Assembly (NCBI GenBank): GCA_006384855.1
Contig: VCJN01000162.1
Location: 33,412 to 97,411, forward strand
Length of the DNA stretch: 64,000 nt
Source of the DNA: Tetraselmis striata
Taxonomy: Eukaryota; Chlorophyta; Chlorodendrophyceae; Chlorodendrales; Chlorodendraceae
Reading direction: 5' to 3'
The notes beneath the pieces are model-generated. The model was not told the origin of the DNA and ran no database searches. It worked only from the letters and a program-made list of their open reading frames with translations. The translations under genes and the position numbers were made by a program. Shown here piece by piece: positions 1,869 to 21,282 of the stretch. Positions within the stretch are counted from its first letter, which is position 1. Each line of letters begins with the position of its first letter.

Positions 1869-4800
1869 ATTATTCACCCGAGAACCCTGCCCGGCCCGCT
1901 AGCTTGTGGCCGTCGATTCCGCATCGCCAAGGCGCGGTTTCGTAGATATCGGACGGCGCTAGTGGATGGAGGCATCAAGTGTTATCGTGTTACGAGTGTT
2001 ACCATAGCGGCATTTTTATCGGACGATGACTCCACGCTGGACCATCAGTAGTTTATTGCGTCATCATTCTGCAGTACTTTGTTCATTCTTACATCGTCGC
2101 ACGGAGCGCTTTGATAGTTCGCGTTGACCTGCGAACTCGGTCATAATTGAAACAATGTCGCATCGTCATGCGGGTAGCAGAGTATACTAGTACTGTATAT
2201 GTTTCCATATCTGCCACGGCAGTTCGCAACGGATTCGTGTAGTCAATAGTCGTGATGATGATGGCGCGGGCCGAACCAATACAATACATTTCTTGAACAT
2301 TAGTAACCGGGCTCCATGTATGTAATGGACCCGCAATGATAACCGGTCCCCACGACACCCCCCGCGATGCGAGTGCCCCGAGTGCAAAACCTGGCGCGAG
2401 GGATGCATCCCCAACCCCCGGTGCGGGCAAGTCGCAGCCGGCCTCAAAGGAAGCGCCACCAATTGCCAAGTTGGGCGGCCTTGCTGCGATATAATGCATT
2501 TGTGCGCCTTTTTACGGCTTGCTAATCTTGTCACCATGTGGCACAGGAGCCACCTCCCCGAAGGCAGATACTACGGCGCCTCCGACGCGACGCCAACTGA
2601 GCACGGCTGCAGAGCTGCTTTAACAAAAAACAAAGGAGAAGGTGCGTTTTTGCTATGTGTCAGCGCCCTATGTTATATTTAATATTTTAAGCCGTTGCTG
2701 AAATATGGGCGCTTTGTTGGGGAATCAAGGATGGCGAAAGGCTGCCGTTCAAGCACAACCCGGCATTCGTGCGTGCTCGGAAGCAGCATCGTCTGACGAC
2801 TTCCGCCGACGCAGAGGCCGAGGTTTAGGGTTTTCAGCCTCGGCCGAAGCGTAAGGCGTGTCAAGCCAACGAGGAGCCGCCGCGTGGAGCCTTTGTGGGC
2901 GACCGTCTAGCATGGCGGATGAAAGACAACCCTCGGCGGTGCCGACTTCTGTGCCTGCCTCTTACTCGGAGAAGCCACTGCCAGAAAACTTCCAAATACT
3001 CGGTGGGGCCGTCTTCGGCAAGAAGCTACTTCCCGATCTCATGTGGTTATGGCTGCGCCTTAGGTGGGGTGGTCCACGGGGCCCCATCCCATAAAACGGC
3101 TCGCGTGTTTCCGACTGGTTGTTTCCAACCCACTGATTGCAAAGCGGGAAGGCTACAATGTGTAGGAATGTCGGCAGGCGGGTAGGGGGCGGGGGTGCTG
3201 CGCACCTTAGTATCCCATGAGGCATGCAGGTACCGCCATTTAGTCGGGAGGCCAAACATTGCCGCCGCCTTGACAGCTTCGTAGTCGGCATATTGGGTGT
3301 GGCCGTCTTCGGCAGAACGCTAGTGCCCGATAGTAGGCGCCCCTTAGGCAGGGTGTTCGACAACCCCCAAGCCCTCGCTCTAACTACGACTCGCTAGTCC
3401 AGTTGCACGCTTCCTTGCTGACCAAGACTGCCGTCGGCAGCCACTTCCTTGCTGGCCAAGACTGCCTTCGGACGCCACTACTTCGGCCAAAGACGCGTGG
3501 GGCTGCATGAGAGCCCCCCCTGAATGGCTCTCCTAGAGGCGCAAGGTCGAACAGAACTGCACCACGTGAGGAGGTGGGATGCCCGATCACATACCCAATA
3601 TAACTCATTGTCGGCCCATCAACCTCTTGCCTACCAAACGTCCCATCATTCGCGACAACAACGGCCTTCGCCCGCTCGATTGCAGCGGCTTGGTCGTCCG
3701 TAGCCTGCAAAGCAACGCCCAACATTATGCCCCGCCGCCTTCCCTCCGGTGGGGTCGGTCATATTGGACCAATATCGGTTTGACTAGGTGAGGGAAGGAG
3801 ACAACTGTCCGCAGTATGCGCCAGCCGACTTTAGATAGCGACGACTACACGTGCCTTACCCCGCCGCCAATAGGTGCGCATGTACTTTATGCAAGTATAC
3901 GTGAAATGGTCGAAACCCTAAAACCCTGGACAGGGTTCAATGCTCGGATTTTGTACAAACACGGGACAATTTACAACCCCCGACCCGTATTGTTTACGCT
4001 CGAATCATGTCCCATTTCCCGTGCCAAGATTGGTGCACGTGTCGAACGACGCGATAACGAAGTTTTTTCGCAAGTCGTTGTATATAATCCTGAATGCACG
4101 AGCGCACGGCTTCGTCACCGTGACACTGTCTAAATAAGGGTGTGCAAAGTAGCAGTCATCGACTCAGCGACAAGGCCGCGGATTACTCTTTATACTTCAC
4201 TATCCATCTACAAAGGTGTATGCTACAATCCCCCTCGTAAGTCTTACCATGTACGTATCTATCTGTATCGCCACGACAGCACCGGCGCCGCCGACCGCCG
4301 AGTGGTACAGTGGCGCGTATTTATGATATAATCAATTTAAAATATTCATCAACGGCTTGATATGTGATAGGTGGCGGAAGGGCGCCTGCCTATTACGCTC
4401 ATGATTCCGTTATGCGCTGGTTCGAACCATGCCGGCCCCCTCGGTGGAAAAGTAACCGAGGGGGGTAGGGGGGGGCGATGCAAACATTTTTAGGTTCTCC
4501 TACAAAGCCTTATCGCGCAACCCGCATCCCGATAAAAAGGCGATGCACTCGCCCCGCATGGGCGGATTCCCCCTGCGTAGGGCCCCGCCCTACGTGCTGC
4601 CCAATAGTAGAATATGGGAGCGTAATGATGACCAACCTAACCACATACCATGGACGATGCCCTAGCAGGTGACCATATACACCCACCCGCTGACTCGGGG
4701 GCTGCATGCCTGCGCTAAAGCCCGGCTCTACCAAGGGTGCATTGAGCCATTAAATGCGAAAAACAATTGTATGTGGGCTGGTTTTGGAGCAAGCTTGCCT

Positions 4801-6900: not shown

Positions 6901-7044
6901 TGCTGAAGCATGCACTGCTTAGAGGCAGCTCCGCTCACTGGCAGCCATCATGCGCAGGGGGAAGCAGGAGGTCGGCTGCCAGTGCGTGCCGAGTCTTTGA
7001 GCATTCAGGCGAGCGCGGGTCAGCGGCAGCGGCGCACCAATCGG

Positions 7045-10000
7045 ATGGCCTCCAGCAGCCGCCGGGAGCTGCACCTGCACCGCTTCCGGGTTGTGCGGCC
7101 TGGTAGCGGCGGCGCACTGCTGCGCTGGAACTACGGCCTGCTCACGCTGTGCCAGCTGCCGCCAGGCGGTGTTGGTGTGGGGCTGCCCGAGTTCCCGCTG
7201 TACGACGTTGCTGGCTCTGAAACCTTGGTCGTGCGCACTGCCTACCTAGGCACACTGGATTTGAGCCCCACCCAGCTTGCGCAGCTGCAGGCATTCCACC
7301 AGAAGGCATGCAACCTGACTCTATACCACCCTGCTAGTTGGGGATCTGCAAGCATGCTCCTAATCGCCCTGTGTGCGTGCCTGCTACTCTAGGTATTTGA
7401 TCTGCTGCTAGGGGAGGAGGATTGTGAACAGGGGGGGGGGACAGACCAGGACATTGCTGCCAGCTCCTCCGTCACCAGCCAGGAAGTAACCCCCCCCCCC
7501 CCCCCCCCCCCCTTTGCGCATGAGCCCCCGCGCCTACTTGGCAACGGGGCTATAAGCTCCTGCTCATATCACAGCGCCTCCTCGTGCCCGTCTCCGCGGG
7601 AAGTAGCGACTATCCATAGTACGTAACAATAAAGCGTGTACTTATAAAATCACCGTCTAGCAAGCGGTGCGATACTCGTAATGTGACTATATTTTACTGC
7701 GCAATGATACGCAACCATATCTGAATCTTGCATTGTCATACACCTGCAGATTATGACGCGCACGTTGTTATGCACCTTGGGAGGGGGCCAAACGCTCGTT
7801 AACATGATGGCAAGTAACAGTATGGATTAGGCCTGCGCATAACGCGAGTGAGCGGTGGAACCCCGGTGCGACTTAGCAAGTTCAATTTTATGTTTTACGG
7901 GAGATAGAGAGGAGGTTCTGCTGAGATAATGAAACTGTGGTTCCCGTCCTCTCACAATGGGCACTCGGGCTGGCACAACGCTGTGGTCGCAGCGCGGCTC
8001 GCATCGGCGCATTGTGAGGCGAAAGAATGTCCTCACAGTCTCTTCTGTGCAAGGCCCTGCCAGCCACAGTGGACTCGCGGCAGGGAAGCCTATCACTGAT
8101 GAGGCATGGTCGCGCTCCGCCAGCGGCCTCTGGTGCGCCCCTACCAACCTGCGCCATCCCATCCTGCTTGCTGCTTTGCTGCTGACTCTGCCTCCGCAGA
8201 AAGTCCCGCCTCAGCCTCTAAGACCCCGGGCCTAAACAACGCCGTCGTTCATACTGTACTGGTGTATGTTGGGAACTTGGGGGCTTTGCGCAGCGCAGTT
8301 GCATCCGAAAACGTCACCCCGCAGCAGCTGTTCTGGAAGAACGTGTACTGAGGAACGATACTGGAGTAACGTATTTTGGTGCTGAGCCTGCTTTGACATT
8401 CACAAGGCTGGGTGTTTACCAGGGCTGCGTGGTAGTCATGGTTCCGGGCTCAGTTTTATGTGCGTATGTGCAGCGGCGGTGTTGGTGGCTGGAATGGCGG
8501 GGGGGGGGGGGGGGGGGGGAAGGATGGGATGGTGTGTGTGTGTGGGGGGAGGGTATGAATTTGTTGGCCTGATGAGGGGGGCGTGCTGGTCGCCGGCAGG
8601 TACATCATGGCCCCACTGCTTGATGCAGCTGCTGTAGTGAGCAGGAGTCCTGCTGACACCGTGGACTGGGCGAGCGTCACGAGTGTCCTGAGCGCGTATG
8701 CTGGCGAGGCTCCAGAGGTGTGCACCCCTGTCTTGAGGAGGCGGTCAGTCTTTAAGCAAGCGTACGCCAGGGCACTCGCCGTGATGCGACCAGAGCGTTC
8801 AGCTCGGCAGCACACCACTAGCTCAGCGATGTTGCTTTCAGTGCGCACATAGGCAGAGCCAGGGAGAGAGGGTTGCTTTGAATTTCCGCACCAGGAGAGC
8901 ACATGTGCGAACAGGAGAAAGGGTTTGCGAATCACTGTGTTGGATTACTGGGTGCGTAAGTTGAGCTCCCGTGCATAATGCATAGCATGTCATTAGCGTG
9001 GAAGAGATTCCTTGTCAAACCTCCCTGCTGTGCACGCCATAGTAGAAGGGTGGAGGGGGGCAGACATGAAATAATGCACCATGCGGCAATATCCAACACA
9101 GCTGGTGGCGGGCCTCAGACCCTGATGTACGAAGCCACTGCCACGCGGTCCTGAACCAAGATTCCTCATGTCTGGTGTGGCGCTGCACGCAGCGGGCGGT
9201 GCTTGCTGACCTGACGCCGTGGCCTGGTGGGCCGGAGTCCGCAGAGGCACTGCGGCAGGCGGTGGCAGGCAACGTGGTGGTGAGCAGGTACAACGGCGTG
9301 TGCTTACTGGTCCGTGGGGTGCGTGCGGACCTCAGCCCCTGCAGCTCCTTTGCTGACTCCAAGCCAAGCACTGCTCCATTGGTGACGGCCTGGCCTGTTA
9401 TGTGGCATTCGCGGGAGAGGTGATGAGTTCATGGTGGTGGTGTGGGGGGATTGCTGCGCGCGCTAAGCAGTAGGGGGCTGGGGTGGCTCCAGGTCGGGCC
9501 CCTGTCCATGGGAGAAGAAGTGGCGGTTAATGTAGAAGAGGGCAAGCAATCAAAGAAGAAGAAGAAAAAGCAGCAGGATAAGGTTTACAAAGACTTCACA
9601 GACTTCTACGCAAAGCGCTGGGGGCTGCCCATTGCGTTTCAGGGGCAGCCGTTGCTTGAGGTGTGCGCACTCTGGTGCTTGCGTGGCCCACCCTATATTC
9701 ATGAACGTGGTCACCAAACCAGACAGAAAGCACGCCGCCGGGCTGTAGCCATGAACAGGCCATGCCGTTGCCGCTCACACTGCATCAATTAACGCTAATG
9801 ATGTTGCTGGTGGCTACGGTGCTCCTACTGAAGGACCCCCCCCCCCCCCCCCCCCTTTCGCCCCTCTGTCCACCTATTTCTTTTCTTTTCCACCCCTTCA
9901 TGGCCTTTCCTTGTCCCGTGAGGCCTCTTGCCTCACTCATCCCTTCTTTTCACGTGCATGCCACATGACAGCTCCTGGTGAGGCCCCGAGCGGTACGCCC

Positions 10001-13000
10001 CCCCCCCCCTTCTCCCCCCCCCCCCCCCCCCCCCTTTCTCCTGCTAATTACAGCACGTTTGGAGTGCAGCAGCTTCAGAAGAAGTGAATGACTTCTGTTG
10101 ACGGTGTCCTCGCTGCCCATTTGCATTCGGCGATTGTTGATAGGGCTGCGGCGGCAGGATGTCCTGCTGGTACCCGAGGTACATAATCACCGCCTTGAAC
10201 ACACTACCGGTACTCCTTTGATCCTCCTTGGGATGCCCTTGTTGCCTCTGTCTTCCCCCTCATGGACTATGTGTTGCCCTGCTTGCCGTGCGCCCCCCGG
10301 TCGGCAGCTGTGTGATTACTGCTTCGTGCCACCGGTGGTGTGGCGTGCATGCCTGCTCGCCTACCCGCTGCTCTGGCACCTGCTTGCCGTGCTTCATGCC
10401 GCGGATCTTAGATCCTTCCTGCGGAGCTCCATGCTGGCCAGCGGCTGTGGAGAGCCAGGTAAGAGGAGAGACACCGTCCCTCAGTGAATTATCACTGCGT
10501 AGCGCTGCGAGGCGCTCCTGCGCTGCTTGTGTTCAGCGAGTAATCACGGATACGATTGTCCCAGTAGGCAACCGCTGCTGCGTCCTATAGCTGCTTGCAG
10601 CTAACCTGCCCAACTGCACCTCATTATCATAAACAGTAAGCAGAATGTGTAATGCATGGGATTCAGAGCGGCTCCGCTGTAGCTTACCCACACACGTAGC
10701 CACCCCGTCTAAGGCTGTACGTGCGTTTGCTCAACTAGGGTGTGACCCGCCGTGGTTGCCGGGAGTCACACCGCTGCTCGAGGCCATCACCACAGTGTCC
10801 GCTTGTCCGCGGCACAACAACGAGCGCCTCGAGTTCCTGGGTGATTCTTTCATCAAGGTGCATCCCTATTCACCTCGTGTAACAGGTGTGGGTTAGAAGC
10901 AAAGGTGCAATGGCTGCTGAGGCACATGGCCTGCCTGTGTAACTCAGTTTGCAGTGTGCCTGCATCTCTTCGTGGACCACCCTGGCTCGGACGCGGGGGA
11001 GCTAACAATCACAAAGGCTTTGCTGGTGCGCCTCTCGCCACCACAGAGGGCAGCAGGATGCATCGCTGCTGCGTATCAAGCATACTGGGTCTTACCGTGG
11101 GCTGATCATGAATGTGTGGGTGGATGTGTGGGGGATGGCTCTGTGCAGGTGAGCAACGCCAACCTCAAAAAGCTGGCGCTTGACCTGGGGGTGGACGGGG
11201 CCCTGCGACGCCATCGTCGTCGGGTGGAGCTATGGCGGCCTCCAGGGATGAGGAGCAGCTTCATCTCTCCACTCAAGGCTGAGCATTGCAACGATAAGGT
11301 CTGTGGCTGGCAATGTCTACTGCTGTGAAGAGATAGCCATTTCTGTCTTGGGTCAGCAACACAGTGAGTGCAACAACACTTGTGTACGCGCAGAGCCCTT
11401 TGTATTGAGAAAATGGGACATGTACAGTATTGGCCTGTAGCACTGTCCTGAGTACTACGTTAACCTCGCAGAGATACGCTGATGCACTGGAGGCGCTGGT
11501 TGGCGCATTCTATCTCTCTGGCGGAGTGGAAGGTGGCTTCCGGCTGCTGTTTCATGCAGGGGTGCTGGATCGGATGCGGACGCATGGCCTTATGTCGCTC
11601 AAGGTATTCTCTCCACACCCCGCAGCCCCTGCTCAAAGAAGTGGAACGAATCGCCATGTTGGCCACCTGCTAGGACCCCAAGGCAAGCGTTCCATATACA
11701 GTAGTATCGATGAAATATATTTGCTTTCAACCATTGTGGCGGAACAGTCTCAAAATAATGTACAACATGCATGGACAGGTGGTTGGCTGTGTGGTTCGGC
11801 TTGGAACTGCGTGCTTTTCATTGGCCACTAAGTGTTGCGTGCCTGATTACACGGTGCGGCAGACCTGCCGGCCAGCAAATGTCGGTGCTTCACCGGTATC
11901 TGCCCGCAGCACCTGCAACCATGGAGACAGGGAACGTGCCCTGTCCGAGCTTGAGCGCATCCTTGGCTACCGCTTCAACACACCTGCCCTTGCTCACACA
12001 GTAAGTACTGCGCTCATCTCTGCCTATGTAGCGCCACCTATCTCGGATGTACAAGTACTTGGGGCTGGTATCGCGCCAGCTGAGAGAATCTGATTCCTCC
12101 AGGCTTTCGCACACAGCTCCCTGATGGACAGTGGCATGCCGGGCTGCGACAGCTCATACAATCGCCTGGAATTTCTTGGGTACGCCAGTGTCCCGCTCAT
12201 GCAACGTCTGACGTCAGGTTTCAGCATGCATGGTGCATGAGGCCAGAGGCCGCCCTTTGCGCTTGCCACGCGACCAGGGACGCTGTGCTGGACCTGCTGG
12301 TGACGGAGGCAATGATGCAGCGTCATCCAGACGTGCAGCCTGGCGAGCTCACCAGCCTTCGCCAGGTGCGGATGCAGCTCGACATACAGCTGCGATTATG
12401 CTGTTTTTCTGGCATGGCATGTGTCTGTACATGTTGTTCCCCAACAGGCAATAGAGAAGCATGTTTTGTTCTGGCATCACGCATCCTGACGTTTCCTGGT
12501 GGTCCATCAGGCAATGCTCAACAACCAGTGGCTAGCACACGTCACCGTGGTCCATGGGCTGCACCAATTTGTCCGGCACCACAGCCCCGAGCTGACCGCC
12601 ACCATTCCCCCCTTCAGCGCCCACGTGGCCCGCATTGGTAGTGAGGTGGAGCTTCTGGCCTGCTCGTTGTCTGGTATGTTGCTGATCCAAGTACAGCAAT
12701 GCCACTGACGACTTCTCCTCGTTTAAACAATCAGGTAAAGGGGGCCGCAGAGCTCAAGAGCGGGGGTGGCACGCAGGCAAAGCAAGCTGCTGGCAGCAAT
12801 GACGGCGGCGACAAACAGAAGTTACTCAAGGCGCTTCGCTCCACTGGGGGGCAAGTGTCTTGTCAAGAGGGATGGCCCGAGGTTTGTGCTTCCCATCCCA
12901 TTGACATGTACTCCTGCAGGCTATTACTACAGAAGACATCCTTGAATTCGATTTTCCCCTCGATTCTACTGCCTACAGGCATCCTCCGGAGGGCTGGCCT

Positions 13001-13866
13001 TCGGAAGCCGTGTTCAGGCACCCAAGGTTCAGGCCGCAACTCCATTGCTTCTTGCACGCTGCATACATGCTTGGGCTCGAGCACAGCGACCCCCGCTTCT
13101 ACCATGTGCTAGCCTGAGATGTCTGATGGCTAAACTGGCATTGATGAGATATGGTAACGTCGAATTTACATATGCAGGCACTTGGTGACGTACTTGAAGC
13201 GGTGATCGGGGCTGTGTTTCTTGACTGCAGCTGTGACCTCAAGGTAACGTCACGCGCTAGCATCATGTCACAAGTGATAAAACCAGATTTAGAGGGCTGG
13301 GGTGGGGTTAGGGCAGGGGCAGCTCGGGCCTTGTTGCCCCTCCGATCGGCGAGCTGGCTGGCCTAGTTGACCGGGAACATTCCATCCACAGAAGACGTGG
13401 AAAGTTGCGGAGCCACTGCTGCACCCACTGCTCACACCCGACAACATTCCCATCCAGCCGGTGCGCGGCGGTTGCTTGTGCTCATGCTGCTGCCCCGCAA
13501 CATGTCTGACTTTTGTAGCTCGAGCACGAGATGCAAAGGTATACGTGTGTGTGCCTACACGACAGATCCGAGAGCTCCAGGAGTTGTGCGCCAAGATGGG
13601 CGCCACTCTGAGCTTACATAGCACAGTGCCTGCTGCAGTTGGGAATGGCGATCCAGCAGTGGAGCGCGGTGCAGGTGGAGGTGTGCATCAATGGGATTCA
13701 TGTTGCATTTGGGGAAGTGGCGTCGAACAAGCAGCATGCGCGCATGTTGGCGGCGCATGCGGCGCTAGTTGTACTAAAGGAAAGTCCTGGCTTGCTGGTT
13801 GGAGTTGCTTGTGATGTGCAAGACCCAGGAGATGGGCTGCTGTCCTTGACGACGGCATCGTCCTGA
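7045..13866 (+). CDS. Dicer-like ribonuclease III, no helicase seen
   Basis: Predicted to cut double-stranded RNA into small RNAs. Domains in order: platform (7045-7305, 7393-7485; LHLHRFRVV, LPEFPLYDV); PAZ (8600-8717, 9193-9381, 9493-9660, containing YKDFTDFYAKRWGL and QPLLE); a helical linker (10054-10083, 10144-10178, 10308-10458; VPPVVWRACLLAYPLLW). RNase IIIa lies at 10700-10857, 10948-11025, 11149-11298 and 11472-11603 (NERLEFLGDS; ADALEALVGAFYLSGG). RNase IIIb lies at 11863-12000, 12103-12179, 12278-12365, 12511-12645, 12735-12854 and 13178-13243 (YNRLEFLGDA; GDVLEAVIGAVFLD). A linker at 13392-13460 leads to a dsRBD (from 13566; IRELQELCAKMG, NKQHARMLAAHAALVVLK). Both RNase III signatures keep the acidic residues. 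Phases agree from 8600 to 13566. Unresolved: the exon(s) between 7486 and 8599, a frame change near 13626-13638, and the true start (ATG 7045 is the first Met before the platform; the frame is open back to 6910). I see no DExD/H helicase upstream. Confidence 0.88.
7306..7392 (+). other. Probable GC-AG intron in the Dicer-like gene
   Basis: Joining AAG at 7303-7305 to GTA at 7393 keeps the frame and gives FHQKVFDLLLG, which fits the amphipathic platform helix of Dicers. The intron then begins GCATGC and ends CTCTAG. Reading on without splicing meets a stop exactly at 7390-7392. No GT donor nearby gives an equally good join. Confidence 0.5.
9661..10053 (+). other. Dicer-like intron with long C tracts
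   Basis: The donor GTGTGC follows QPLLE and the acceptor is TAATTACAG. The intron holds a 20-nt C run (9836-9855) and two further C blocks (about 9998-10009 and 10014-10034). The last C block, CTTTCTCCTGCTAAT and the acceptor together look like an extreme polypyrimidine tract plus branch site. Confidence 0.6.
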
Positions 13867-13929: not shown

Positions 13930-14125
13930 TGGCCGGCATAGCGTCAACTTCCCCGTGTCGGACGACACCCTGGCCACCGGCGTGCAGAGCTTCAACATCG
14001 CCGTAGGCGCCGTCAGCGACATGGCCGCTGTGATCGTCAACACGGGCGCGAGCGCGCAGGAGGGTGGTGAGGTGGGCATCAATGCCATGCGCCTGCTCAG
14101 CACCAACCACGACCACATGGAGATA
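13930..14125 (+). other. Coding-like fragment downstream of Dicer-like gene
   Basis: An open + frame with GC-rich third positions reads FPVSDDTLATGVQSFNIAVG and continues with GASAQEGGEVGINAMRLLST. It lies in what should be the Dicer-like 3' UTR. No start, family or splice partner is evident. It could be an alternative 3' exon, a relic of another gene, or chance. Confidence 0.2.
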
Positions 14126-16940: not shown

Positions 16941-17185
16941 ATCCAGTACTCCACTGCTAAAAGTAGTGTAAAAAAATCAAAACAGCAAGCCGCCTAAAAG
17001 CGGCCCGCATTTCGCATGAGGCAGGGATGGATGAGTGATGCGCGCACGGTTCCGAGTCCGGGCCACTCGTGCACGTGTGTGTAAGGGTGATCCTCGGACG
17101 TGCTGTGCAGCTTCGGCAACGGGATGGCAGACGAATCTGCGCCGTCGGATGAGGCAGCGAGCACGCTCTCGAGCCGCCACCAAGC

Positions 17186-20100
17186 TCAGGACCCCGAGGA
17201 AATCTCTTGCGAGTAAGACCTCCTAGCCCGGGTAGTGCACCGAGTGCCTCGCGATGAGAGGGCACCCCGATCCGCAGCTAAGCATGCGACACCGCGCACT
17301 GTGCGGCGCACCCCCTTGCTCACCTCACCCACTGTGCCGAAGACCATGCCCGTGTACTCCGACAAATCCAGTATGTTGCGAAGACGGGGCATGCTGTCCG
17401 GGCTCCATGTTGTGCCACGCCGCATCTCGCGCTGCCAACCCCCGTTGTATGTCGCCCGACAAGGACCGCTCAAACCGATCCACGGCCGTGGCCTGGGGCA
17501 CTGCAGTGTACTTGACCCCGTACCGCATAGTCTTGAACTTCAACAATGTGGGTCTCAAGCTCCGGGGATCATAGGTCCCGGTCACGACGTTGAACGCCGG
17601 GAGGGAGAGCTCTGCGTCCAGCACTAGGTCCTTGAGTTCATCCCTGGGTACGTGTTGCCGAGAGGCACTGCCTGCTGGAACAAGTCATCCACCTCCTGGC
17701 GTACGGCGATACCCAGGTCGTGAACACAGTGATCGCGGAAGGCGTCTGCGATAGCGTCGTGCTGTACACGCCAGTGAGCATCTCCATATGTTCCGGGAGG
17801 TTCGTGAGCGCGTAACCGAGTTGGTCAACAGTGACGGGGTTGTGCTCTGTCGAGGGGAGAATGATCTGGCTCCCAACCACCGGGGCTAGGCGGAAAGAAG
17901 TACCCGGCAACGACCTCCCGCAGCTCATGCGGAGTCATGACTATCCGCGCGGTGGGGGTGGCCACTGTTGTCCACATGCATGACGCCGCTTCGAGCTGGT
18001 TGAACAAGATCCGTTCCCTACACGTGACAGGAAGAGCGCACACCTCATTTCGAAGCCGAAAGTTGTTGGCCTGGTCTAGAAATGCCGTATGCTCCTTTTG
18101 CGAGCCCGAAGCAGCCTCCACTTCCCGCTCCATCACGCGCGAATCTGCGTCGTCGAGATGGCCAACAGTAGCCGCTTGGAGGCGGCCCCACGCCTCGCGC
18201 ACCGCCGCGGCATAGCTACCCGACCCACGAGCATCGTTGAGAACGTGATCATACCGGCGGGCGGAAGAAGTTGCTTTGAAGCTGCCTCGGCCAAGTACGG
18301 ACACGAGCTGTGGGTCAAAGAAACCAGGGTTGGGGTGCTGGTGCCGGAGTTTCTAGTTAGGAACCTTGGGAGGATGTCGTTCAGGCAACCAATAAAGGCG
18401 GCGTCAGAAACGGTAGCCATGCGGCGGATGCCAGCGCCCTTCAACCAAGTGAGGAGGTGAAGCCCGCTGCGCGCCTTGATTGGCCACTGCATCCTCGCTC
18501 AAGGTAGCCACCTCCGTTGCCATGGGGTCGGGGTCGTGCAAAAGCTCCGCCAGGAAATCGGTGACCATCATATTGGTGTCGGTGCCGTACGTGGAGGGAT
18601 CAAAAGAGATTCCTAGCACCCGCTCGACCGCCGCGAGGACGGTGGCATCCACCGCCTCCGCAAAGGCTTCCACCTCGGACGGGAGGCAGGCTGCGGAGCC
18701 AATACCCCGCCTTGTGTTGCATGCAATGCTTGAGCATGGCCCATGCGTGGTGATGCACGCCGTGGGTGTACCGACGGCTGGGCCTGGCAGATAAGGGCTT
18801 GCTCAGGCTAGCGTCCACCTCCTTTCGTAGCTCCTCCGCCTTGCCGCGCATGTACGCCTGCACATACGCTGGCGATCCCAGCGGCACGTCGAGGACCGGG
18901 ATGCCGTGATGGCCATCTAGCTCGGGCCACTCGATGTCGGCCGGAGCCTCGCGCCGCGCGGCCTCCATGTCTGCGATGTACGCATGCATCTTGTCGAAGC
19001 GCACCTCAAGCCCCACGGACGCCTTGCTGGACGTGCGGAAGGCATGAAGAACCGGCCACAGGTGCTCCGGGAGGCCCACAAAAAATCCATCGTCGGCGTT
19101 GAAGCGCGCGGCCCCGTCAGTGACCTCCAACGTGCTGTCACACTGCTGCACCTCGGGGTCAATCGCGACGCAAAAGGAAGTCGTGGCCAACGGTGTGCCC
19201 TGTTGCACGCCGTCCTCCCACCGCAGAGTGGCGGACCAATCGTCCACGGCCAGATACGAATCCGTGGAGAGGGAAGCTAGGAGCGCAAGGATGACAGGGT
19301 GAAGTGGAGAGCAATCGATGTGGCGTTGGATGATGGTGCGGCGCCATGCTTCGTTGTAAGCGTTGCGAAGGTCGGTGTGGACGATGGCGGCACATGGGCC
19401 AAGCTTCTTGGCGATGAGCCGGACGCCGTGGATGAGCATAGAGTCGCCCGCGGAAATGCCAACGCCGAGCTGAGATGGAGCAAGCACCGACACGCACATA
19501 TGCCTCCTTCATGTTGTCCACCACTGCCCGCTCCGTTGCGCGCCGCTCCACCTCCCCGACTGCCACATGCCGCACATCCGGGGCCCTGCCCTCACCTAGC
19601 TTCTTGACAGGTGCCACGGAGCCTAGCAGAGGTGAAGAGTCGGTTGAACCACCCGCCGGGCAGGCGACCTTGGAGGTATATTGAGGCGACCTCCGACATG
19701 GCGCGGACCGCCGCAGGCCCCGACGCCGGGGCGTATTCGCCCACCAAGTAGCGGAGATACTCGTTGCACATGCCTGAGGGCCCCGCCGCCACGTGCTGCT
19801 TGAGTTGCTGGTACGGCACGCGCATGTCCACCGTCAGGGCGGCCTCGTCGACGAAAATGTCATACGCGGCGTCTGGGATCGGGTGGCTACAGGACAGGTG
19901 CGTGTCGCGAGGCTGGGCGAGGATAGCAGGATTGCATAGGTCGCCCATACCCTTAGAAGGTAGTCGGCCCGCCGCTCATGAGAGCTCTCCGTCCTCCACC
20001 AACGCCACAACGGCGTCCGCGGTGCCCACGAGTAGCGCCGCAAAGAGGTCAGCGTTCGATCGACGTTGGCGGGCATGTCCGGCGTAGAACGCCTCGGTGC

Positions 20101-20428
20101 GCGCATCGTCCCATGAGCGCACGAGTTCGGTCATGCGCCTCTCCGCGAAAGCCCGGAAGCGCCACGCCAGGGCTTGTTGCCGCCGCCGCCCGCCTCGGCT
20201 CGGGGCCCTAAGCAACAATTGTGGCCGCATGTACTTCCACTTCAACGCTCTATCCAACACCACGGGGTCATCGGCCTCCACCGCTGCCACCACCAACTCA
20301 TTCACGCAGCATTGTGCCTCCGCCCACGCTTCTTGAAAGTCAACAGGCACCGCCGTCTCCATGGACATCTCCGCCGGCATGTGCACTATGTCCACGTCGG
20401 AGAGGTGGTCCATCGCACCCCACCCCAC
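17186..20428 (-). pseudogene. Non-LTR-type reverse transcriptase relic with nuclease-like tail
   Basis: Read on the minus strand the pieces lie in order in changing frames. An N-terminal region (20428-19976) is followed by RT fingers with AAGPSGMCNEYLRYLVGEY (19948-19600), then a linker APVKKLGEGRAPD (19617-19500). The palm (19499-18750) has VHTDLRNAYNEAW, GVQQGTPLA and FNADDGFFVG. Next come LKGAGIRRMATVSDAAFIG (about 18460-18400) and HELREVVAGYFF (about 17930-17890). The tail has LKFKTMRYGVKYTAV and SEYTGMVFGTVGEVSKGV (17540-17300), which resembles the C-terminal restriction-like endonuclease region of RLE-type non-LTR elements; KFKT would stand for the (D/E)xK site. The RT box is ADD instead of the common YxDD. 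At least four frameshifts make this dead. The GC-rich open frames at 20454-21282 may be its 5' region. Confidence 0.75.
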
Positions 20429-20453
20429 CCCGTCGCCGGCTGGAGCTGGGCGA

Positions 20454-21282
20454 CTAGGGGGTGGGGGCGGGGGGGGGGGGGGTACCGAGCCCGTGAGGCC
20501 TGGCTGCCGGGGCGGCCGGCCGGTGCACCCACCTCTGGCGGCGCGGGAGCAACAACCGGGGGCGCTGCGACGCCCCGGAACGCAGCGACGGACGGCAATG
20601 CGGGCGACGACAGCGATTGTCCCGCTCCACCGGCGCGGCGCCCCCCCCCCCCCGACGGTGGTGCCGCTCGGTCAGCACGGCGCGCGCCTTGGCTAGCCAC
20701 GCGTCGGCGACCTTGGCGAAGGGCACGACGTCGGCCGGGTGGTGCCTGGTGCGAGCGGGTTGGAGCGACCTGGCTGCGGCGTCGATCCTCGGCGCCCAGG
20801 CGGCGCCCACGCGACTGAAAGCGCGTCGGCGACTGTCCAAGCCACCGCCGGCGCTACGCCCCGCCGCGCCGGCACGCTGCCGTGTAGCTTGGCGAGAGCA
20901 TCGAGGCCGGTGAGCGCCAAGCCTCGGTTGACACCGCGCGGCCGCGGCTGGGGCCGCTCGGAGAATTCGTCCTGGCCGGTCGGAACGCCGTCGTGATCGC
21001 GCTGCGACGCGCCGGGCCCCAAAATACTGCTGAATACTGCGGCGAGACGACGACGCACGCGGGGCAGCGCGCGCGCCGGTCGTACCTGCCACGCACGTCG
21101 CGGACTCGGGACTCGACGACCGGCTCGCCGCATGGGCTTACGTGGGAGCCGGCGGGGCAGCAGCCGCGGGCGGGCTCGGCCTTGGCTGGGTGGCGCCGGG
21201 CGCACTGAAGCTGGACGGGTTGCCAGATGAGGTGAGCAACATCGCTCCTTGTCCAGATTCTGGTATCTCTCCGGCGTTGCAA
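20454..21282 (-). other. GC-rich open frames upstream of the RT relic
   Basis: Overlapping minus-strand frames are Arg/Ala/Pro-rich, with a stretch RRSIQQYFGARRV and, in another frame, RCPACVVVSPQYSAV. They could be the eroded N-terminal part of the RT element, where Cys-containing DNA-binding segments are usual. The base composition makes long open frames likely by chance, so no gene is called. Confidence 0.25.

Follow-up and report, generated by a model that had tools for sequence, protein, structure and literature searches.

A Dicer gene of Tetraselmis striata that appears to begin at the platform and to lack both a helicase and a DUF283 domain

Can a Dicer of a green alga dispense with the N-terminal helicase? 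The question is raised by a gene at positions 7045-13866 (+) of a 64,000-nucleotide stretch of the Tetraselmis striata genome, hereafter the window (C127:33412-97411, the contig C127 being 97,411 bases long; positions given without a contig name are those of the window). An earlier sequence-only reading of this stretch had proposed a short Dicer-like form starting at the platform domain, and this is still the best reading of the DNA. We searched the 40.4 kb of C127 that can be read 5' of the first exon (C127:1-40455), as well as the 224-Mb assembly, and neither a helicase nor a DUF283 domain belonging to this gene was found in either search. We estimate a probability of roughly 0.6 that the gene, as read from DNA alone, encodes a genuine Dicer starting at the platform and lacking both domains.

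The gene model was assembled by hand from the three reading frames and spliced at GT-AG sites and one GC-AG site. It comprises 20 exons, has no internal stops and encodes 791 residues, with introns of no more than ~1.1 kb. The agreement of exon phases first noticed from PAZ through RNase IIIb extends over the entire model. Its limits are unsure where exons 3 and 5 begin, at the 21-base exon 6 and in the final residues. The predicted domain order is a weakly scoring platform, PAZ, RNase IIIa, RNase IIIb and a weakly scoring double-stranded RNA (dsRNA)-binding domain (dsRBD). Exon 1 (7045-7305) would hold the protein start, at ATG 7045 or at the other in-frame ATG, 6910, together with the platform, which is weak both in Pfam and in the alignment to Arabidopsis DCL1 (AtDCL1); it ends at the GC donor. 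The platform ends in exon 2 (7393-7485), and exon 3 (8577-8717), placed partly by eye, leads from the platform to PAZ. Exon 4 (9193-9381) carries the first half of PAZ by Pfam, and exon 5 (9565-9660) the second half (..FYAKRWGL..QPLLE) by Pfam and alignment to solved relatives. The connector consists of the short exon 6 (10158-10178; DVLLVPE, aligned to LVPELC of an animal Dicer) and a helix in exon 7 (10308-10458), the latter from the model and its alignment to solved relatives.

The RNase IIIa signature ERLEFLGDSFIK is encoded by exon 8 (10739-10857), as indicated by the model, alignment and Pfam. RNase IIIa continues through exon 9 (10948-11025; model), exon 10 (11149-11298; VSNANL..PPG) and exon 11 (11472-11603), which contains its second acidic motif, DALEALVGAF; exons 10 and 11 are supported by model and alignment. 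After exon 12 (11863-12000; model), which holds the linker and the start of RNase IIIb, that domain proceeds through exon 13 (12103-12179; NRLEFLG) and exon 14 (12278-12365; GDAVLDLLVT), both by model and Pfam, and exon 15 (12511-12645; NNQWLAHVTVVHGLH), by model and alignment. Exon 16 (12735-12854) forms a variable insert within RNase IIIb in the model, and a possible further in-phase exon of 62 residues (12920-13105), indicated by splice sites and phase only, lies outside it. The second acidic motif of RNase IIIb, GDVLEAVIGA, is in exon 17 (13178-13243), followed by exon 18 (13392-13460; KTWKVAEPLLHPLLTPDNIPIQP) and the first part of the dsRBD in exon 19 (13566-13625), all three from model and alignment. 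Exon 20 (13675-13866) contains the second part of the dsRBD and the stop codon; its codon score is negative and its final ~25 residues are unsure.

In Pfam searches with the spliced protein, Ribonuclease_3 was matched in two stretches at E 5e-44, whereas PAZ (residues 183-273) reached E 1.2e-5 and 25.7 bits, just below the cut-off of 28.8, and the platform (E 0.017) and dsrm (E 0.034) were sub-threshold. The alignments to AtDCL1 were collinear over the platform (a piece of 2.3 bits, in order), PAZ, RNase IIIa, RNase IIIb and the dsRBD. The PAZ, RNase III and, weakly, dsRBD regions lie where the sequence-only reading had placed them. Two acidic motif pairs, ERLEFLGD/DALEA and NRLEFLGD/DVLEA, are intact in one chain; from the alignments to solved relatives we take them to be those of tandem RNase III domains. 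The closest solved relatives were AtDCL1 (172.7 bits) and AtDCL3 (171.9 bits), and animal Dicers scored 132 bits or less.

The 40 kb upstream of the gene yielded no helicase. Five helicase motif patterns, applied to both strands of C127:1-40455, gave no motif set and three isolated single-motif matches, which extends to 40,455 bases the absence of a helicase reported before for the 7 kb within the window. As positive controls, all five motifs were found in each of three loci discussed below, on contigs C495, C166 and C1905; two of the five patterns had been relaxed by a single letter in the light of C1905, and C495 and C166 match without this change. Extra RGRxR matches in the scan were taken as chance. 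Filtered tblastn of the 40 kb with helicase pieces of AtDCL1, C495 and C1905 and with the DUF283 of C495 returned nothing below E 0.2, and its two matches, at E 0.23 and 0.55, were likewise taken as chance; in a control, the AtDCL1 helicase segment matched C495 at E 9e-27. Pfam searches of the three plus-strand frames from 3901 to ~7075-7095 found nothing up to E 10, a range in which the HMMER filters discard most matches above about E 0.1. Neither Helicase_C nor Dicer_dimer, the two families proposed earlier for an upstream search, was found by motif and tblastn over the 40 kb or by Pfam from 3901. Followed in the 5' direction, the exon 1 frame ends at a TGA (6904-6906), with ATG 6910 directly after it (6904-6912, +) and ATG 7045 further on. 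A remnant of DUF283 had been suspected at 6910-6990 (HCLEAAPLTG onward); this stretch has no Pfam match and is the frame that runs from ATG 6910 just past the TGA, and the suggestion was dropped.

The helicase was also sought on other contigs. The DUF283 family search of the assembly gave two matches up to E 1, on C495 and C166, and two Dicer Helicase_C protein queries (25 and 14 matches) ranked C495 and C166 first and then C1905. Two of the 25 matches are C495 and C166 and ten were inspected by eye, the remaining 13 scoring 32 bits or less; of the 14, a part that included the stronger ones was read. Among the ten inspected, only C1905 looked Dicer/RIG-I-like, in agreement with the solved-structure matches; the others look like DEAD-box proteins or, in our own reading, FANCM/Hef-like proteins (C1341 and C1760) and were rejected as the missing helicase, and no orphan Dicer-type Helicase_C was present among the inspected matches. 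A genome-wide DNA pattern for the Dicer-type helicase motif V had four matches (C495, C166, C1905 and C284) and none on C127, and the reversed control pattern had none. The C284 match (C284:149847-149873, -) has no other helicase motif visible in its 5-kb context and was attributed to chance. We regard this pattern as a better test than the family searches because it needs only 27 unsplit bases. The genome-wide searches with the RNase III family PF00636 and the PAZ family PF02170 listed no match on C127 and so missed the window's own Dicer, presumably because its exons are small; since these searches work exon by exon, their silence carries little weight for small-exon genes.

The Dicer-type helicases that were found belong to other genes. 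C495:66898-73691 (-) encodes DEAD, Helicase_C, DUF283 and RNase III domains, and C495 and C166 are ~98% identical over 16.6 kb, presumably as alleles of one second Dicer. The window Dicer is single copy in the assembly with no second allele found, versus two alleles of this other Dicer. Between DUF283 and RNase III of C495 no PAZ was detected by Pfam (two frames) or against the PDB (one frame), and one part of this stretch is PAZ-end-like by eye. The gaps of the two Dicers are complementary, because C495 has a helicase without a recognised PAZ, whereas the window gene has a PAZ without a helicase.

The third Dicer-type helicase, at C1905:50242-58630 (-), is followed by an RNA-dependent RNA polymerase (RdRP) and then by a nucleotidyltransferase (NTase)-like domain. 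Pfam recognised DEAD, Helicase_C and RdRP (best E for RdRP, 1.6e-46). The top solved matches of the helicase were AncD1D2, which we take from its name to be an ancestral Dicer helicase construct, and then RIG-I, AtDCL1 and Dicer-2. The RdRP motif DLDGD (residue 64) and an NTase-like motif (residue 449) share one open frame of 758 residues. The helicase frame shares 53 bases with that of the RdRP, and any of 120 candidate introns of up to 400 bases could join the two; because so many short introns could do so, one gene is the simplest reading, and C1905 apparently encodes a single chain of Dicer/RIG-I-type helicase, eukaryotic RdRP and NTase-like domain. The NTase label follows from a weak Pfam match to PF22600 (E 0.0019, under the cut-off) together with motifs recognised by eye, the region having no PDB match up to E 1 and no NCBIfam match. 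The RdRP family search of the assembly gave 20 matches, several of them off C1905; those on C233, C395, C2154, C1566, C1727, C273 and C468 suggest several RdRP genes or remnants.

Several points weigh against the reading as a helicase-less Dicer and against a tie to C1905. The platform, the dsRBD and, narrowly, PAZ score below the Pfam cut-offs, and codon bias is too faint to decide for or against an exon: the known exons score between -0.42 and 0.54 bits per codon, the majority of them between 0.0 and 0.3, and one stretch of repeat DNA scores equally high. The label "plant-like" is based on phmmer scores and is not clean, since DCL4, at 127.9 bits, falls below the best animal Dicers. The link between C1905 and the window Dicer consists of a shared genome and an analogy, and the other RdRP loci have no such helicase match. 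A split, diverged DUF283 could be missed by family searches that are insensitive to split exons, and the motif V search would overlook a degenerate motif, one interrupted by an intron or one in sequence that the assembly lacks. The insensitivity of the family searches and the outcome of the motif V search pull in opposite directions and leave our estimate for the helicase-less Dicer unchanged.

Repeated DNA flanks the gene on both sides. Positions 1-622 are the end of a high-copy repeat, with many copies elsewhere in the genome at 88-96% identity, and 622-2375 and 2375-4019 in fewer copies at 79-86%; between 4020 and 7044 no repeat match except G/C runs and no Pfam domain in the plus-strand frames was found (40 of 3285 candidates scored in the repeat search). 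Downstream, a repeat at 16973-21224 recurs at least 28 times more, complete or in pieces, at 90-91% identity (28 of 3086 candidates scored, the window itself not being listed), and within it the frame 18603-19508 (-) is reverse transcriptase-like by eye, with no Pfam match at E 0.01. Further upstream on the contig lies a piece of a chromodomain retroelement (C127:13400-14143, -; SH3_Tf2-1, E 3e-18; Chromo, E 1.7e-8), and Pfam gave nothing at E 0.01 on C127:2-2044. Just 3' of the gene, 13961-14086 has the top plus-strand codon score of the scanned region and scores on the minus strand as well.

These flanks bear on the possibility that transposons deleted or displaced the helicase half of a full-length plant-type Dicer-like (DCL) gene, of which the window gene would be the remaining 3' half, perhaps unexpressed or decaying. 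We consider this unlikely, even though the repeats on both sides would allow an old truncation, and the retroelement piece further upstream and the single copy of the gene would fit it. The 20 exons show no frame damage and have kept the acidic motifs, and the 3 kb between the upstream repeat and exon 1 bear no Pfam trace of Helicase_C or DUF283 exons; the absence of such a leftover beside exon 1, with the frame intact, counts against a recent transposon cut. It is quite improbable that helicase exons do exist but lie over 40 kb away on the 5' side, or that the assembly lacks them or has put them in the wrong place. Repeats, in which misjoins can occur, make up the sequence upstream of 4019, a second allele is lacking here though the other Dicer has two, and a helicase split over exons as small as those of the window Dicer could escape the family searches. 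Such exons would, however, have to lie much farther off than the ~1.1 kb of the longest intron in the model and beyond a TGA that closes the frame directly 5' (though an acceptor past the TGA is possible), and neither the inspected Helicase_C matches nor the motif V pattern, which does not depend on exon length, yielded a further gene. RNA maturation is the role of some RNase III enzymes that are built differently, but it is very improbable that the protein, although correctly modelled, is a plain dsRNA-processing RNase III for structured RNAs outside small-RNA production, because PAZ, the connector and paired RNase III domains are the Dicer-specific parts of a molecular ruler, and the genome also has RdRP genes and PAZ matches elsewhere.

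If the window gene is a Dicer that starts at its platform, and we infer that it is expressed, it would grip a dsRNA end by the platform and PAZ, and the connector would measure the distance from the PAZ end to the RNase III centre and so set the product length. Cutting would proceed from the ends first without ATP-driven threading, as in Giardia Dicer. The dsRNA might be delivered by a partner, for which the helicase-RdRP-NTase protein of C1905 is the best candidate, a more tentative suggestion modelled on Dictyostelium and on the fission-yeast RDRC. The C495/C166 Dicer would serve substrates that require its own helicase. In a doubtful but conceivable extension, the canonical Dicer would be split over two machines, a helicase Dicer without a recognisable PAZ for one class of substrate and a helicase-less PAZ Dicer fed by a single-chain RDRC, the covalent form of the three-subunit yeast complex. 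A helicase-less Dicer in a green alga would show that the plant type can lose its motor and would be a natural experiment on the role of the Dicer helicase, and the co-occurring C1905 chain poses a testable question: does a helicase borne by the dsRNA-producing polymerase work in trans?

Among known systems, the C-terminal halves of Arabidopsis DCL1 and DCL3 are the best solved relatives of the window Dicer over PAZ and RNase IIIa/b and, for DCL1, over the dsRBD too. AtDCL1, however, has an N-terminal helicase (its Helicase_C was aligned), whereas the window Dicer begins at the platform; AtDCL3 also carries an N-terminal helicase, which was matched in the C1905 comparison. The N-terminal DExD/H helicase and the DUF283 that mark a canonical plant DCL are both absent from the window Dicer, and by one account AtDCL3, too, has no DUF283 (PMC7827160). 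Chlamydomonas DCL3 is said to be a typical Dicer apart from a PAZ that is not detectable, as in the other two DCLs (PMC4817775). As far as that description goes, the second Tetraselmis Dicer resembles Chlamydomonas DCL1-3 in having a helicase and no recognisable PAZ, and the window Dicer is their reverse. The likeness of the two Dicers to those of Arabidopsis and Chlamydomonas fits a green alga, as does one match to the RuBisCO small subunit in the assembly. A literature search by titles and the opening lines of abstracts, with subscription papers largely outside its reach, returned no report of a helicase-less Dicer in green algae.

Fission yeast Dcr1 keeps its helicase. In Schizosaccharomyces pombe, RDRC comprises Rdp1, the helicase Hrr1 and Cid12, and Dcr1 is described as associating with it (PMC3380556); the C1905 chain would combine the three activities given there, those of an RdRP, a helicase and a poly(A)-polymerase-family protein, which in S. 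pombe are three separate proteins. The Dictyostelium Dicers DrnA and DrnB are described as lacking a helicase, which resides instead in the RdRPs RrpA-C (PMC4894637, PMC3661229). Tetraselmis would share with that system the helicase missing from a Dicer and found in an RdRP; by the same accounts DrnA and DrnB differ from the window Dicer in lacking PAZ and in having an N-terminal dsRBD, and the passages concerned mention no NTase-like domain such as that of C1905. Giardia intestinalis Dicer is presented as a minimal enzyme of PAZ, connector and two RNase III domains, with the helicase base absent (PMC10328071, PMC7827160). On that description the window Dicer is alike in having neither helicase nor DUF283 before the platform and PAZ. 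The Giardia enzyme is far less similar in sequence (39.7 bits) and has no dsRBD, whereas the window Dicer has a dsRBD region that aligns to AtDCL1, weak as its dsrm match is. To the helicase-less Dicers so described from Giardia and Dictyostelium, a green-algal case with DCL1/DCL3-like PAZ and RNase III domains would add one.

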